DNA from: Geminicoccus sp.
Lineage (GTDB): Bacteria > Pseudomonadota > Alphaproteobacteria > UBA7985
NCBI GenBank assembly: GCA_002705565.1
Contig: PAHJ01000084.1
Coordinates: 1-32,052 of the forward strand
Direction of reading: 5' to 3'
Length of the DNA: 32,052 nt
The notes under the pieces were generated by a model. That model was not told the origin of the DNA. It worked only from the letters and a program-made list of their open reading frames with translations, and did no database searches. The translations under genes were made by a program, and so were the position numbers. How positions within the stretch are numbered: position 1 is the first letter of the stretch; each line of letters opens with the position of its first letter. Positions 3,779-10,408 of this stretch are shown piece after piece.

Positions 3779-4327
3779 CTAGAAGTCAAGAATGTGCGGG
3801 CTGTGCTCTTGCGCTTCGAGGAAGGTGACCAGATCACCGCTCTTGATCGACGTGGTCAGAAAGTTGCGCAGGGGGTGATAGTGCAGCTCGACGCAATCCA
3901 TCATGCGCCGTTGCAGCACCACTTGCACGCTATTCCCGCTATCGTTGACCACAGAAAACGGCGTCACGGAGCCGGGAATGACGCCCAGGAACTCCATCAG
4001 CCGCTCAGGCTTGGCAAATGACAGCTTCTCCCCCAGGGCAACGCCCAGCGCTTTGATGTCGAGACGTTGGTCTTCCAGCATGACCACCAGCCACATCTGC
4101 CCCTTTTTGTTGCGCAGGAACAGCGACTTGCAGTGCCCGTCCTCGCTGCTGTCCGTGCGCAAGCGTTGGGAGTCTTCGACCGTCCACATGGGATCGTGTT
4201 CGATGGTGGTGGTCTTAAACCCGAGCGCATCCAGCCGGGTCAACAGCTGCTCCGGGGTCCAGGCGTCCGGACGGTGCATCGCTTCAATATCTTCTAGGGT
4301 CGCCGGGTGCTGGTCGTGTTCGGTCAT
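3779..4327 (-). CDS. Prolyl-tRNA deacylase, ProX/YbaK-like editing domain
   Basis: A 182-residue single-domain protein of the YbaK/ProX family, which hydrolyses mischarged Ala-tRNA(Pro) in trans. Seen motifs are KSLFLRNKKGQMWLVV (with the conserved Lys), FLGVIPGSVTPFSVVND and HYHPLRNFLTTSIKSGDL near the C-terminus; all are characteristic of the stand-alone prolyl-tRNA editing group. The start is set at 4327 because AAGGAGA lies seven bases upstream; the longer in-frame extension to 4660 has no ribosome site and no recognisable sequence. It is encoded 91 bases upstream of the thioredoxin-TPR gene on the same strand. Confidence 0.88.
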   Translation of the reverse strand: MTEHDQHPATLEDIEAMHRPDAWTPEQLLTRLDALGFKTTTIEHDPMWTVEDSQRLRTDSSEDGHCKSLFLRNKKGQMWLVVMLEDQRLDIKALGVALGEKLSFAKPERLMEFLGVIPGSVTPFSVVNDSGNSVQVVLQRRMMDCVELHYHPLRNFLTTSIKSGDLVTFLEAQEHSPHILDF

Positions 4328-4873
4328 GCTGCGGTCTCCTTTACCGTTACGACCTAGCCGAAGGCCGCTGACAAAAAAAGGGGTTGTGCGCGCCAACGGG
4401 ATCAAGCGGCCGCAAGAGCCGCTGATAGCAGATTTGACAGGTGTTTTCAGAGGTTGGCCCCGAAAATGGCGCGCAGCCGCACAACTTAACTCAAAATGCT
4501 GCAACCGACGCGGGAGCGTGCGTCCTGCGGGGTGGGCGGAAACCCATCTCCCGACCCGAATTCGGTGAAAAACTTTGCATAACCCTGTAGTGCCGAACCT
4601 TTCAGGACAAATGGCTGTATCTCTGGGAGTTTTGAGGATTCTTGTCCCGCGCGCACTCAAAAATACAGAGTGCTCGTCTGCTGAGGACTAGCATTATGCG
4701 CAATTAATGGTGCCACGACCTCAAGTAAATGCGCGGAAAACTGGGTCATCCATCGGTCAAAACAGCATTTTTAATAAAATTTCAGTCAATTGCGCAAATG
4801 TTGCGAATGGATGCCGTACGACGCGAACCAGCGTCGGCTGAATTAAACTTTGAAAAAAATTATTGAGGACCCC
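4328..4873. other. Long non-coding interval with several inverted repeats
   Basis: About 545 bases between divergent genes with no credible coding sequence. The half near the ProX gene is GC-rich and holds nested complementary pairs: CTCAAAA (4490-4496) with TTTTGAG (4630-4636), CGGGAG (4511-4516) with CTCCCG (4548-4553), TGGG (4533-4536) with CCCA (4543-4546), and TTCGG (4561-4565) with CCGAA (4593-4597). The half near 4874 is AT-rich and probably carries the promoter of the secreted protein gene. I could not match it to 6S, SRP, tmRNA or RNase P RNA by eye. Confidence 0.4.
4819..4836 (+). promoter_or_regulatory. Perfect inverted repeat upstream of the dumbbell protein gene
   Basis: CGACGC-GAACCA-GCGTCG is a perfect 6-base inverted repeat ending 37 bases before the ATG at 4874. 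It could be an operator or a leader hairpin. Two more facing copies of TGCGCAATT lie upstream (4697-4705, and its complement at 4788-4796). No protein is known to bind these; the role is inference. Confidence 0.3.
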
Positions 4874-5872
4874 ATGAGACTTTATCACATAATTTGTGCC
4901 CCATTGATTGCTGCCGTTTCCATGACCGCCAGTCTTCAGGCTTCTGCCCAAACCGGCGGAGCAGGGCCTTGCGATCCTGAAAATAATCCCGGCTCAAATG
5001 CTTGTTTCCAGGAATTCGTGGCCGAAGAGTGTTCGACGACATTTTCTCAAATCAAGGAATTAGTCGCCGCACGGGACGTCCTGCTTGCCAGCCTCACTGA
5101 CGCTTCCGACGAAGAAGTCGATGAAATAAGAGATGCGCTGAGAGCCAACCATCGCGAATCGTTCGAGGCTCGCAACGAATACCGGTCTTGCCGCAAGTCT
5201 GCGCGCGCTGAATTTACGAGCAAAAACCCTCCCAAAAAAGGAAAACACGACAAGAAAGAAAAGGCCGACGGTAAACGTACCGATCGCCAGCAGGATAGGA
5301 TCGACCAACGTCGTGAAGACAGGGTGGAAGAACGTCGTGAGGACCGCCGGGCAGACCGTCGTGAAGACCGGGTGGAAGAACGCCGAGAAGACCGTCGCGA
5401 AGACCGGGCCGAAGACCGTCGTGAAGATCGGGTGGAAGAACGCCGCGAGGACCGCCGGGCAGACCGGGTCGAGGACCGTCGTGAAGAGCGCCGAGAAGAC
5501 CGGGCCGAAGAACGTCGTGAAGATCGGGTGGAAGAACGCCGCGAGGACCGCCGCGAAGACCGGGTGGAAGACCGTCGTGAAGATCGCCGGGCAGACCGGG
5601 TCGAGGACCGTCGTGAAGAGCGCCGTGAAGACCGGGCCGAAGAACGTCGCGAGGACCGCAAGGAAGGCGACGGCGAGGAGTATCCAGCAGCCTGTGGTGC
5701 CCTGGTTGAGTCTCTGGCGTCCTTGAATGCGGCCCGTGATACCCTCCGCGAACAGATCGAGCTGGCAAGCCGGTCCAAGAAGCAGGAATTGAAGAAGGTG
5801 GCGAGGTCTTTGTCTCGTGAAATCGGTGACCTGAAACAGCTCCTTCGTCGCTGTCACGACAAGCACAAATAG
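4874..5872 (+). CDS. Secreted dumbbell protein: two C-x52-C helical modules joined by an R-x-E-D tetrapeptide helix
   Basis: A 332-residue protein I do not recognise as a characterised family. Residues 1-25 form a clean signal peptide ending ASA|Q. A short C-x10-C stretch (Cys33, Cys44) follows. Module 1 runs Cys53-Cys106 and module 2 runs Cys274-Cys327. Both are exactly C-x52-C, both carry AARD twelve residues after the first Cys, and they align without gaps at about 15 of 54 identities. Between them lie a Lys-rich linker and, from residue 146 to 265, thirty strict tetrapeptides R-[R/V/A/K]-[E/A]-[D/E/G]. The mature protein has six Cys. A periplasmic or external protein with a long rigid charged rod is inferred. 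ATG 4874 is preferred over 4850 because TTGAGGA precedes it and the signal peptide begins there. It stands alone, ending at a strong terminator. Confidence 0.8.
   Translation: MRLYHIICAPLIAAVSMTASLQASAQTGGAGPCDPENNPGSNACFQEFVAEECSTTFSQIKELVAARDVLLASLTDASDEEVDEIRDALRANHRESFEARNEYRSCRKSARAEFTSKNPPKKGKHDKKEKADGKRTDRQQDRIDQRREDRVEERREDRRADRREDRVEERREDRREDRAEDRREDRVEERREDRRADRVEDRREERREDRAEERREDRVEERREDRREDRVEDRREDRRADRVEDRREERREDRAEERREDRKEGDGEEYPAACGALVESLASLNAARDTLREQIELASRSKKQELKKVARSLSREIGDLKQLLRRCHDKHK
5309..5668 (+). repeat. Thirty-unit 12-bp (tetrapeptide) coding repeat with a 132-bp block duplication
   Basis: The 360 bases encode 30 tetrapeptides in perfect register, such as RRED, RVEE, RRAD and RAEE. 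Three weaker units (KRTD, RQQD, RIDQ) precede them. Bases 5453-5524 recur at 5585-5656, 132 bases (11 units) later, with only 4 differences in 72, so the array has grown recently by block duplication. Arg/Glu codons lack stops in the other frames, which makes all six frames look open. Confidence 0.95.
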
Positions 5873-5917
5873 GGCTCGGAGGGTCCTGAATAGACCTGAA
5901 GATTGCCCTTGAGGCTG

Positions 5918-5961
5918 AAAGAAAGGGATGGCGGCAGTACCGTGGCCATCCCTTTTTCTTT
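5918..5961. terminator. Bidirectional intrinsic terminator
   Basis: GGGATGGC (5925-5932) pairs with GCCATCCC (5945-5952). The stem is extended by A-rich sequence on the left and TTTTTCTTT on the right. The plus strand therefore ends in a T tract, and the minus strand also reads hairpin then T-rich. It serves the convergent dumbbell-protein and PPIase genes. Confidence 0.85.
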
Positions 5962-5995
5962 GTCTGCGATAACCCGCCTATTTTGGGGTGGCAGC

Positions 5996-6919
5996 CTAGC
6001 GATCGCTTTCTAAAGGCTCAATGATGGTTTGGATTTCGGCCTTGGCGCGGAGTTCCTGCAGGACCAGGCTCAGACGCTGGGTCTCGAGCTGATTAATCAG
6101 CTGGTCTCGAACGTCGTCCAGGGTGGGCTTCATCTCGGTGCGATCGAGCACTTCGATGATGTGAAACCCAAAAGGGGTGGTGACGGCCTCCTGCGTGAAG
6201 GTATCCATGTCGAGTGCAAAGGCTGCTTGTTCGAAAGGTTCAACCATCCTTCCGCGTGGGAAGAACCCCAAATCGCCGCCTTGGTTCGCGGTTTCTTCGT
6301 CGGCTGAATACCGTTCGGCCAAGTCACTGAAATCAGCGCCCTGATTCAGTTGTCGAATGACATCCTGAGCCAGGCTCAGCGCGTCGCGAACATCGGCTTC
6401 GTCGTTGCTTTCCGGCGCGATCAGGATGTGACGGGCCTGCACGCGCTCCTCGAGCAGTAGTTTCATGGAAAAGACGGTGTAGGCGATCTCCAACGCTTCC
6501 TCGCTCAACTGCTCGGCCATCATATCGCGAATGAAACGTTCTTGCAGCAGCCGGTCAGCCTGAAACTGCAAGGCGGCCTGATAGCTTGCTTGCTGGTGAA
6601 TGCCCTGACTGACGGCTTCTTCGGCCAAAAGCCGCTGTTCCACCACCAGTTGCACGACTTGGGGCAGGATTTGCGCCAGTGGTCGGGCGCCGAGGTCGCC
6701 TGGCAGCAGGGTGTAGGCATATTCAACCTGACCGAAACTGATGGGGTTGTCGTTGACCACGGCGACAACCGTATCAGGTTCAAGCTCGCTTAAGTCCGGG
6801 TAAGGGCCACCGGCAGTCTCCCCGTCCTGGGCACCACTCGGGGGGCCGAAAAGAATCAAGGCACTGAGCGTTGTCAGAGCGCCGATGAGAAACAGGCGAC
6901 AACTGCGATTCGCAAACAT
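5996..6919 (-). CDS. Parvulin-type peptidyl-prolyl cis-trans isomerase, periplasmic (PpiC/SurA-like)
   Basis: A 307-residue protein with an N-terminal hydrophobic signal (about residues 8-30, ending SGA|Q). A SurA-N-like helical region (about 50-155) includes VVAVVNDNPISFGQVEYAY. A rotamase domain (about 162-258) has QARHILIAP, FSDLAERYSAD, GGDLGFFPRGRMVEPFEQA and TPFGFHIIEV. Such proteins help outer-membrane or periplasmic proteins fold. The start at 6919 is chosen because the signal peptide begins there; the frame is open to 6997 with further ATGs at 6934 and upstream, without better ribosome sites. It is convergent with the dumbbell-protein gene. Helping that protein fold is possible but is only a guess from position. 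Confidence 0.88.
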   Translation of the reverse strand: MFANRSCRLFLIGALTTLSALILFGPPSGAQDGETAGGPYPDLSELEPDTVVAVVNDNPISFGQVEYAYTLLPGDLGARPLAQILPQVVQLVVEQRLLAEEAVSQGIHQQASYQAALQFQADRLLQERFIRDMMAEQLSEEALEIAYTVFSMKLLLEERVQARHILIAPESNDEADVRDALSLAQDVIRQLNQGADFSDLAERYSADEETANQGGDLGFFPRGRMVEPFEQAAFALDMDTFTQEAVTTPFGFHIIEVLDRTEMKPTLDDVRDQLINQLETQRLSLVLQELRAKAEIQTIIEPLESDR

Positions 6920-7041
6920 GGCGAGTCCATCCATTGCGGATTGAGAGATTCTGTCACAATGGTGCAATCGCCGGGCCGATAATACTGAATTATCCATTTT
7001 TAAGAGATGTCTGCACCCTCGTTGAACGCGAAAGGGCGGAT

Positions 7042-7185: not shown

Positions 7186-8190
7186 GTGAGCGATTTACAG
7201 AAGCTTCAGGAGCTGACGGCAGATGCTGCGCAGCGAGGTGTGACCTTCAATAATGTCAAATTGGGCCAAAGTGACGCGGGCGATCTGATTTTGCAGACTA
7301 CCACCTCGGGGTCAGCGATCGAAATCTCGATTCCGGAGCCGCTGCATATCCCTATCAGCACCGTAAACATGTCCACCGGCCAGCTTGATGAAAAAGCCGA
7401 TATGGACGAGAGCCTGCGGGACTGGGTCAATGCCTATCTCGCGGCGCTGGTGACCGACGAGGACCGCCAGACCCTGTCAGGTATTCGCGAAGCGATCGAT
7501 GCCGAAAACCTGACCGCTAATAGCGCCTTTCGGGGGCTTGGTATCGCAAACTTTTTGACCATCAATACCAAGATTGAGGCCCTCAATCAGGCATTGCTTG
7601 CCCCCTCCGTCGTCGCGACCAACAAAGGTCAGGTTCTGCTGCCAATTCTGGGCGCAGCGCGGCCGGGAAACATGGGTGTTCCGCTGAACATTACCGCAGG
7701 CGGTTCGTTCCGTGCGACCGGCAAGGACATTCAGGACGAAATCCGTGTGACAGCGGGGCGCTTCGACTCCATGCATTCCCTGAACGCTCATGGACGGGCG
7801 TTGTCGTTCGGAGCGACCTTTTCCCTGCCAGCAACGCTGAGCTTGCAGGACCAGAGAACGCTGGTGATTGGACGGAACTTTAATGAAACGCGGACCGTCG
7901 GTCAGGCGCAGGTTCCCAAGGCCTGGGCCGACGGGAGCGCCATAAAAATGTCCTACTGCCCAGTCGCGCTTGGCGGCAATCCGCGCGCGGCGCAGCTTGC
8001 GTTTCGCACGGCACTGAAGCACTTGGATCTCACCGGGCAGGACGTGGCATGGTCCACCCTGCGTAACTATAATGTTTCGCGCCTCTTTGAGGCTTACGTC
8101 GCCACAGGCGATATCAAACACGACGGTCTTAGAAAAAAGTTGGCAGAGTCCATCGCTTGTCAGATTGAGACCATGCTGAAATCCATATAG
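7186..8190 (+). CDS. SET-domain-like protein, probably divergent or inactive
   Basis: A 334-residue protein that starts at GTG with CAGGAG about nine bases upstream. No family is certain. The order of patterns resembles SET methyltransferases of the Rubisco-lysine type: GVTFNNVKL with ISIPEPLHIPISTVN near the N-terminus, then GQVLLPILGAARPGN where those enzymes have LVPLxDxxNH, then GGSFRATGKDIQDEIRVTAG and RFDSMHSLNAHG where they have I-x-GEEI-x-x-SYG followed by a leucine-rich helix. The expected NH pair and catalytic Tyr are not visible, so methyltransferase activity is doubtful. There is no signal peptide. The sulfotransferase gene follows about 90 bases downstream in the same direction, suggesting a shared transcript. 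Treat the SET assignment as a fold-level guess. Confidence 0.5.
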   Translation: MSDLQKLQELTADAAQRGVTFNNVKLGQSDAGDLILQTTTSGSAIEISIPEPLHIPISTVNMSTGQLDEKADMDESLRDWVNAYLAALVTDEDRQTLSGIREAIDAENLTANSAFRGLGIANFLTINTKIEALNQALLAPSVVATNKGQVLLPILGAARPGNMGVPLNITAGGSFRATGKDIQDEIRVTAGRFDSMHSLNAHGRALSFGATFSLPATLSLQDQRTLVIGRNFNETRTVGQAQVPKAWADGSAIKMSYCPVALGGNPRAAQLAFRTALKHLDLTGQDVAWSTLRNYNVSRLFEAYVATGDIKHDGLRKKLAESIACQIETMLKSI

Positions 8191-8281
8191 AAACCTAATT
8201 TCGGGCTTATCGAAGAGAATGAGCCGCCTGAAACTAAAGACAACGTCGAGCCTAACAGACGTGGAAGCAGAGGACAGAATC

Positions 8282-9520
8282 ATGGACGCGCAAGAAAAAG
8301 ATCTCGCGACCAAGACTTCAGAGGAAGCACAGGACGCGCAGAATGCTGCAGACGTGCCGGAGCTTCCTGAAGTTCCCGCCTATATCAACCAGCAGCGCGC
8401 TGAAGTCTTGCGCAAGCAACTAACCCAGCAGCCGGTTCCGCCGGAAAAGGGGCTGATCTACCTCGCATCCTTCCCAAAGTCAGGGAACACCTGGACGCGG
8501 CTGTTCCTGTTTGCACTGTTCAATCCGCTGGCCCGTCAGGATTCCAACTTCAACCTGTCTGATATCGCAGGTCGGGCCGGGCAGATGGATGTGACGTTCC
8601 AGCTCTTCGAGCGGATTCTGGGAAAGCCGCATTATGAGATTAGCGACGTCGAAGTGGCACAGACCATGCCGATGGCGCAGAAGCTGTTGGCCGTGCAGCA
8701 GGAAAAGAAGGTTTTCGTGAAAACCCACCTGTGCAATGGCGCCTGGCATGGCACGCGCACCATTGGATTGGATACCTTCCGCTCAGCGGTCTACATCGTG
8801 CGAAATCCACTTGATGTAACCCCATCATTCGCCAGCCACATGAACACTGACATCAATGGTGCGATTCAGGGCATGGCGAACTCGACGCACTTCATCGGCG
8901 GGCGCCCAAAGAAATTCAATCTGGAAGCCGCCATCAAGATCGAAAAAGAGAAGCGCCCCGAGCTGACCGACGAAGAAGCCAAGGAAAAGGCACTCTCACC
9001 GGGTCAGATTCCGCAGCTGATGGGCTCCTGGTCCGAGCACGCGGCATCTTGGACTGCTGCCGCCGATCCGCGCGTGATTTACATGCGCTATGAGGACATG
9101 AAACACGATCCGGCCGACACCTTCTTCCGCACAACCCAGCACCTGGGCCTGCCTTTTAACCGCGATGATGTCATTGCTGCCGAAGAAGCGGTCAAGTTTG
9201 ACAAGATTCAGGCCAAGGAAAAGAAGGACGGCTTCAGGGAAAAAATGGGCGGCGAAGCTTTCTTCCGAAAGGGTAAAACTGGCTCCTGGAAAGAAGAGCT
9301 CACCGACCAGCAGGTTCGACAGGTGATCATGAATCACCACCATCAAATGCGTCGGTTTGACTATATTCCCGAGGAGTACAAAGACCTCGATGAAAAGCTT
9401 CTAAAGAGTCAGAAGCAATTTGCGATGGGCGGTGTCGTCGGTGTTGGACGCAAATTGACCTACTCCGACAAGCTGCGCATCAAGCGTGAGTTGAAGAAAA
9501 AGAAGAAGCTGCAAGGATAA
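8282..9520 (+). CDS. Sulfotransferase domain protein (PAPS-dependent)
   Basis: A 412-residue cytosolic sulfotransferase. The 5'-phosphosulfate loop is SFPKSGNTWTR (residues 63-73), the 3'-phosphate site is VRNPLDVTPSFASH (173-186) and the C-terminal loop is RKGKTGSWKEEL (329-340). KTH at 147-149 sits near the expected catalytic region. It moves a sulfuryl group from PAPS to an acceptor that cannot be named from sequence. A charged insert (about residues 208-240) and a Lys-rich tail ending RELKKKKKLQG are extra to the core fold. The start at 8282 is preferred because AGAGGACA precedes it; the frame is open from an ATG at 8219. It follows the SET-like gene and is itself followed, after nine bases, by the DUF3576 lipoprotein gene. 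Confidence 0.88.
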   Translation: MDAQEKDLATKTSEEAQDAQNAADVPELPEVPAYINQQRAEVLRKQLTQQPVPPEKGLIYLASFPKSGNTWTRLFLFALFNPLARQDSNFNLSDIAGRAGQMDVTFQLFERILGKPHYEISDVEVAQTMPMAQKLLAVQQEKKVFVKTHLCNGAWHGTRTIGLDTFRSAVYIVRNPLDVTPSFASHMNTDINGAIQGMANSTHFIGGRPKKFNLEAAIKIEKEKRPELTDEEAKEKALSPGQIPQLMGSWSEHAASWTAAADPRVIYMRYEDMKHDPADTFFRTTQHLGLPFNRDDVIAAEEAVKFDKIQAKEKKDGFREKMGGEAFFRKGKTGSWKEELTDQQVRQVIMNHHHQMRRFDYIPEEYKDLDEKLLKSQKQFAMGGVVGVGRKLTYSDKLRIKRELKKKKKLQG

Positions 9521-9529
9521 CCCCTGTCT

Positions 9530-10408
9530 GTGTTTTCCAATCCTCAAGGCCCTTTTGCGTGCCGTCCGGTGCGGGGGATGCTGGGCGTGGTTTGCGTCGG
9601 CCTCTGCCTTGCTGCCTGTGATTCCTTTGACGAGGTCAATCTGATTGCCGGCGACAATACAGTGAGCTTTGCGCAGACCGAGGGCGGTGCCTTTGTCCGC
9701 ACCGACGCCGGTGCGCTGGGCGACGTTTCGCAAGCCCTGCCTGAAGGCGTGGTGCCAGTGGGCAAGGTGCGATCGCCCCGTGGTAACGCACCAGAAACTG
9801 TTGTCGCGGCCAGCGATATCAGTAGCAACGGTGGCGGCTTCAATTTTGGCAATATCACGTTCCGCACTGCACGAAGCGCAGAGCGCGAGGCTGAGCGCGC
9901 CGCTGCGACGACCTCTGGTCAGTCGCTGTCTGCTGCCGCTGCTGACGAAGGCGAAGACCAGCCAGGCTTGCTGATGCGGTTGCTCGGCAGAGCCACCAAC
10001 GCAGGCGATGCCATCACGGGCTCCGAGTTGCCTGAATTGGGAAACGATGGACTGCCGCTGATATCCTTCGATACCGCGCAGCAGGGGCGGGCCAAGGTCA
10101 ATAAGTACCTCTGGAATGCCACGGCCCGCACGCTGGCCTTTATGCCCTTGTCGGTCGCAGATCAGCAGCGGGGGCTTTATGTTACGGACTGGCATATGGA
10201 TTCCCAGCAGAACCGGCCGGAGCGTGTACGGGTTGACGTGCAGCACCTCAGTGATGTCATTGGTCCCGGCGCCTTTCATGTAACGGTCTACCGCCAGGTG
10301 CTTGACGGCACAGTTTGGCGCGGGGCACCGACGTCGCTGCCTGCAGCGCGCGAGCTTGAAAGCCGCATTTTGCTGGCGGCGCAGGAACTCAAGATCGCCG
10401 ATGACTAA
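9530..10408 (+). CDS. DUF3576 domain lipoprotein
   Basis: A 292-residue protein. Its signal peptide ends in the lipobox LAAC (Cys30), so it should be a lipid-anchored envelope protein. The middle is low-complexity and Ala-rich. The C-terminal third carries the DUF3576 signature, with VNKYLWNATARTLAFMPL and then YVTDWHMDSQQNRPERVRVDV. This family is alphaproteobacterial and is commonly encoded just before leuS, as here. The GTG start at 9530 keeps the basic RPVRG ahead of the hydrophobic core; the ATG at 9578 would remove it. The function is not known; an envelope role fits the lipid anchor and the lptE neighbour two genes on. Confidence 0.85.
   Translation: MFSNPQGPFACRPVRGMLGVVCVGLCLAACDSFDEVNLIAGDNTVSFAQTEGGAFVRTDAGALGDVSQALPEGVVPVGKVRSPRGNAPETVVAASDISSNGGGFNFGNITFRTARSAEREAERAAATTSGQSLSAAAADEGEDQPGLLMRLLGRATNAGDAITGSELPELGNDGLPLISFDTAQQGRAKVNKYLWNATARTLAFMPLSVADQQRGLYVTDWHMDSQQNRPERVRVDVQHLSDVIGPGAFHVTVYRQVLDGTVWRGAPTSLPAARELESRILLAAQELKIADD

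Follow-up and report, generated by a model that had tools for sequence, protein, structure and literature searches.

The window, a stretch of 32,052 nucleotides from a Geminicoccus sp. contig (PAHJ01000084.1), contains an orphan gene (4874..5872, + strand) that encodes a predicted secreted protein of 332 amino acids. The ORF begins with an ATG, four bases upstream of which lies a GAGGA Shine-Dalgarno (SD) sequence (4865-4869); a TTG at 4850 has no SD and the ATG was preferred. Residues 1-25 (4874..4948, + strand) were recognised by eye as a signal peptide, with R2, a hydrophobic core (IICAPLIAAV) and a likely AxA cut between ASA and Q at 25/26. Cysteines occur at residues 8, 33, 44, 53, 106, 274 and 327 (7 in total) and, with Cys8 inside the signal peptide and removed with it, the mature protein keeps six, in agreement with an earlier note on this DNA that had claimed a signal peptide and six mature cysteines. 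Export of the protein is therefore supported by its sequence. No lipobox was seen in the N-terminus, and neither an anchor nor a known partner gene was found beside the gene. Upstream, the region 4385..4873 (+ strand) is AT-richer (GC 0.51); a promoter scan and an Rfam scan returned nothing usable there, and no promoter or RNA family was recognised. Downstream, an inverted repeat at 5922..5955 lies between the orphan gene and the ppiC-like gene, which converge on it, and is flanked by T-rich sequence on both sides and strands; the RNA fold of 5910-5970 has an energy of -29.8 kcal/mol (z -4.9), and the hairpin is likely a bidirectional intrinsic terminator common to both genes.

The gene sits in a lineage-specific insertion with approximate limits 4381..6013, placed where alignments to congeners stop (at 4382 at most) and resume (at 6015 or later). 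The insertion, about 1.6 kb long, carries the orphan gene only. It is flanked by a ybaK-like (tRNA_edit) gene (3782-4330, - strand) and a ppiC-like gene (5996-6997, - strand), which are 117-183 bp apart in four congeners and 1.67 kb apart here, and both flanks are collinear with the congeners. In congener G005, ybaK is present and no ppiC-like match was obtained at E <= 1e-20. The congeners nearest by flank identity (G002 and G004) are also without the orphan gene, so it is simpler to suppose that this lineage gained it. The GC content of the insert (0.556, compared with 0.598 for the window) and the GC3 of the first cysteine-ended module of the protein, the N head (0.52, compared with 0.65-0.77 in neighbouring genes), are in keeping with acquisition from elsewhere. 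A search for signs of a transposon origin found no inverted repeats at the edges of the insertion. In those genera of the order that were checked, the two flanking genes (ybaK-like and ppiC-like) lie on separate contigs or far apart. Between the ppiC-like gene and leuS, ORFs 7186-8190 and 9530-10408 have no convincing NCBIfam match, and ORF 8219-9520 resembles a sulfotransferase by eye (SFPKSGNTW).

No relative of the orphan protein was found in its own genome or in five congeners, in 11 genomes of the order, 96 relatives, 385 genomes of the class and 398 of the phylum, in two scans of 84,980 species contigs, or in viral contigs and plasmid or phage sets. The contig scans, built on short peptide patterns, can detect only close relatives, and so distant relatives could be missed. 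The earlier note knew of no described family with this layout, which is supported by the lack of any family match in Pfam, NCBIfam, PHROGs or PDB. The matches that did arise were rejected: one was antisense of a PEP-carboxykinase-like gene (G024/L002), another lay antisense to a DEAD-box helicase, in its RGG tail (G000:C130/L023), and a third an MlaD-like coil (G544/L168); tblastn matches on plasmids and phages had E of 0.5 or more, and weak PDB or Pfam matches (E 0.015-0.1) were to generic coils or designed repeats. Within the searches made, the gene is a genuine, lineage-specific orphan, known from one draft genome.

Two modules, the N head (residues 53-106; 5030..5191, + strand) and the C head (residues 274-327; 5693..5854, + strand), are both exactly C-x52-C. 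Aligned without a gap, they are identical at 15/54 positions (28%), and AARD occurs at equal offset in both, twelve residues past the first Cys; all of this reproduces what had been reported of them. When composition was shuffled with Cys fixed, the null mean was 6.6 identities (sd 2.0; P(>=15) = 3.5e-4) and the null Blosum62 score was -11 +/- 14, compared with 57 for the heads. Shuffles preserving the pattern of hydrophobic, charged and small residues gave P = 0.025 for identity and P = 0.004 for Blosum. Register 0 was the top of 52 head rotations (Blosum 39 versus 10), and none of 6,458 real 52-mers from 15 neighbouring proteins scored above 26 (Blosum; heads 39). Since the likeness exceeds shuffles, rotations and every real 52-mer compared, we take it as real, and the presence of two like heads is supported. 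Between the heads, codons match at position 2 in 25 cases (15.6 expected) and at position 3 in 11 (13.5 expected), a pattern expected of an old duplication. Judged by sequence, an ancient internal duplication likely gave rise to the two heads.

The models agree with this likeness. AlphaFold2, given the mature sequence and no alignment (mean pLDDT 78.7, pTM 0.34), predicted a hairpin at 54-74/79-117, a helix at 137-250, a weak stretch at about 251-270 and a second hairpin at 272-297/300-331. The N head, modelled with the C head added as a second row, formed helices 54-75 and 79-114 (pLDDT 93.8, pTM 0.75), the same hairpin as in the full model, where the pLDDT of the C head (helices 272-297 and 300-331) is about 81-89. 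Both modules are thus predicted to be antiparallel helical hairpins and not different folds. Of the earlier claim of one duplicated hairpin, likeness above chance and a common predicted fold stand, and the duplication is likely, not proven. Both heads were matched, with Z up to ~10, to solved antiparallel hairpins such as Kif21A, the arm of seryl-tRNA synthetase and designed two-helix oligomers; homo-oligomers of two-helix design and antiparallel coiled coils were among the best matches, and ZraP (3lay) was also matched (Z 8.2, rmsd 3.1 over 67 residues). As such Z scores are common for helical models, these matches speak for a simple fold common to both heads and say nothing of function, and a fold search of PDB and BFVD gave no match at E <= 0.001. 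Taking the turn centres from the helix limits (about 77 and 298.5), the two Cys of each pair are offset by 4-5 residues across the turn in both models. Disulfide closure of each hairpin, as proposed in the earlier note, is therefore putative: a bond near the frayed hairpin ends is possible on these models, and Cys44 may be an alternative partner of Cys106 in the N head, competing with Cys53.

The 167 residues between the heads (107-273) begin with a basic, K-rich linker containing PP (residues 107-133; 5192..5272, + strand), in part of which pLDDT falls below 50. A mixed-charge tetrapeptide array follows (residues 134-265; 5273..5668, + strand), consisting of three degenerate units (134-145) and a strict core of 30 units of R-x-[EA]-[DE] (146-265), most commonly RRED, RVEE, RVED and RRAD. 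Within the array, TRF detected a higher-order tandem repeat of 96 bp, or eight units (5354..5619, + strand; 2.8 copies, 87% matches). Differences between the copies fall at codon position 3 in 18/22 cases (P = 4e-6), and 13/22 are synonymous compared with 24% expected (P = 5e-4), both P values being optimistic because repeat copies are not independent. The nine nonsynonymous changes comprise five E/D, three E/A and one A/V, and charge is never reversed. That most differences between copies fall at the third codon position suggests that the charge pattern of the array is under selection, with the further caution that an antisense frame at 5047-5778 has the same degenerate codon position as the array frame.

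The array is 88% charged, with a net charge of -6 over 120 residues and a kappa of about 0.01. As its period is exactly 4, i/i+4 charge pairs are all like-charged (0 attractive, 89 repulsive), and i/i+3 pairs are balanced (47 versus 45). Stabilising charge networks, of the sort that underlie predictors of single alpha-helices (SAH) (PMC5812594), number zero in the array compared with about 2.9 per residue in EEEEKKK. Therefore, the array does not qualify as a classical ER/K single helix. Nor did it contain a nonpolar coiled-coil seam, as power was near zero at 3.5, 3.6 and 3.67 and only period 4 was prominent. AlphaFold2 without an alignment nonetheless drew a 114-residue helix (137-250) with pLDDT mostly 83-91, a method that may favour helices in charged repeats, and mean helix propensity is as favourable in the array as in the heads. 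A 120-residue helix would be 18 nm long, and its charge dipole would rotate about 40 degrees per unit, resulting in winding positive and negative stripes that would suit side-by-side association of arrays. If the array is not helical, its very low kappa predicts an expanded chain. Helix, bundle and expanded coil are thus all candidates for its state. The earlier description, of heads held about 168 residues apart by a linker and a 120-residue rod, holds for the strict array and, at 167 residues, very nearly for the spacing; the word rod is weakened, since the charge pattern does not justify it despite the AlphaFold2 helix.

We propose, with a probability of roughly 0.4, that the protein is a secreted envelope protein in which two hairpin heads of common origin and the charged array together make a bivalent spacer or cross-linker. 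After export, the heads would fold as hairpins, each probably with an oxidised Cys pair, and would bind either a partner or the heads of another molecule. The array would hold the heads up to roughly 20 nm apart, and arrays may also associate side by side through their winding positive and negative stripes, such that the protein would form networks, either periplasmic or extracellular. Disulfides, self-association, the spacer role and a location beyond the inner membrane are what we infer here. This proposal is supported by the likeness of the heads, the hairpin models with designed homo-oligomers and antiparallel coiled coils among their best matches, the charge of the array, the coding constraint and the gene's own SD and terminator; it is weakened by the lack of a homologue, anchor, lipobox or partner gene, the absence of i/i+4 salt bridges and the generic nature of the head matches. 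That the protein represents a new class of envelope scaffolds in bacteria, in which duplicated Cys-ended hairpins and period-4 array helices with winding stripes build a side-by-side network, is quite unlikely.

Other explanations bear on the array and on the protein as a whole. One is that the array, instead of a rod, is a mixed-charge chain that expands or condenses, and that the protein is a protective, gel-forming or hydrophilin-like envelope protein, in principle as CAHS D is. Very low kappa and a high charge fraction do predict expansion, CAHS D consists of two terminal regions separated by a well-mixed charged linker (PMC10949331), and arginine-rich mixed-charge domains condense (PMC9324279). 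However, the heads are confidently predicted alpha hairpins instead of collapsed, beta-prone ends, the array helix is modelled at fair confidence and there is no stress context, and we consider this explanation unlikely. If the AlphaFold2 helix is taken at face value, together with a helix propensity equal to that of the heads and the missing nonpolar seam, the array could instead be a rigid single alpha-helix of fixed length, a ruler spacing the two heads, for example across the periplasm; the exclusively repulsive i/i+4 pairs, the even i/i+3 balance and the absence of charge networks make this rather unlikely. Secreted hairpins, the structural match to ZraP and a sub-threshold NCBIfam CpxP match (E 0.046) would also fit a protein of the CpxP/Spy/ZraP type, a periplasmic hairpin that acts as a chaperone or binds metal, with an incidental repeat, yet the LTxxQ motif is absent, the Pfam matches include no family of this type, the N head has no Pfam match at E <= 1 and the CpxP match reaches 13.7 bits, far under the cut-off of 148, such that this is very unlikely.

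The remaining explanations question the likeness of the heads or the gene itself. The heads could be non-homologous, ordinary Cys-ended hairpins that converged in composition. In support of this, their identity is only 28%, their score is unexceptional when residues are shuffled inside fine physicochemical classes (P 0.34), and codon position 3 matches are not in excess. Exactly equal length, common Cys and AARD offset, and an excess over coarse-class shuffles and real proteins argue otherwise, and the fine-class test conditions on similarity itself; we consider convergence unlikely. As to the gene, a draft genome that is 82.8% complete in 163 contigs, the orphan status and the low GC3 of the N head would allow for an ORF that is spurious or in decay, or for a repeat that was wrongly assembled. 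This is highly improbable given the signal peptide, SD, strong terminator and confident hairpins, the third-position bias in the array and flanks that are both collinear with congeners.

If the spacer or cross-linker proposal is true, one lineage has gained a compact natural two-headed spacer or network former for its envelope, and the linker offers a test case of how a charge repeat with a strict period of four residues, which should not favour a lone helix, behaves. If it is false, a well-defined orphan gene remains, at a clean insertion site and with internal signs of coding constraint that need no homologues. The layout is unusual; the mechanism is one that we infer.

Comparison with known systems places the protein between several. 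CAHS D of tardigrades is its nearest functional analogy, not a relative: both have two ends parted by a highly charged, well-mixed linker, at least partly helical in CAHS D and predicted to be so here (PMC10949331), yet CAHS D is eukaryotic, with beta-prone ends where Cys-ended hairpins occur here and an amphipathic linker, and no sequence relation is shown. ER/K SAH domains resemble the array in their long R/E/D run, lack of a hydrophobic seam and possible use as spacers, but differ from its exact period of 4, like charges at i/i+4 and missing charge networks. Arginine-rich mixed-charge domains of the SNRNP70 and NELFE type likewise combine R with D/E, well mixed and near neutral (PMC9324279), whereas the array belongs to a secreted bacterial protein with folded heads and has two-plus-two charges with V/A inside units. 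ZraP, CpxP and Spy are exported alpha-helical hairpins, as the orphan protein is by its sequence and models, but it is without LTxxQ, has Cys at the hairpin ends and carries the hairpin twice with a repeat array between. Periscope proteins are exported and use tandem repeats to hold a head away; their repeats are folded domains and they are surface-attached, in contrast to tetrapeptides with no anchor found here (PMC9704523).

Arrays of related pattern occur elsewhere. Other R-x-[ED]-[ED] arrays in the 385 class genomes were set aside as unrelated proteins without Cys heads, for example an RNA methyltransferase and a DEAD-box helicase tail. R-R-D-D or R-x-E-E arrays were observed in a DEAD-box helicase tail, the N-terminus of an RNA methyltransferase and an unnamed protein of other class members (L035, L029 and L031), and tandem R-W-E-E or W-E-E-R units, possibly the wrong frame of another repeat, in frames of many viral contigs, L051, L063, L074, L097 and L107 among them.
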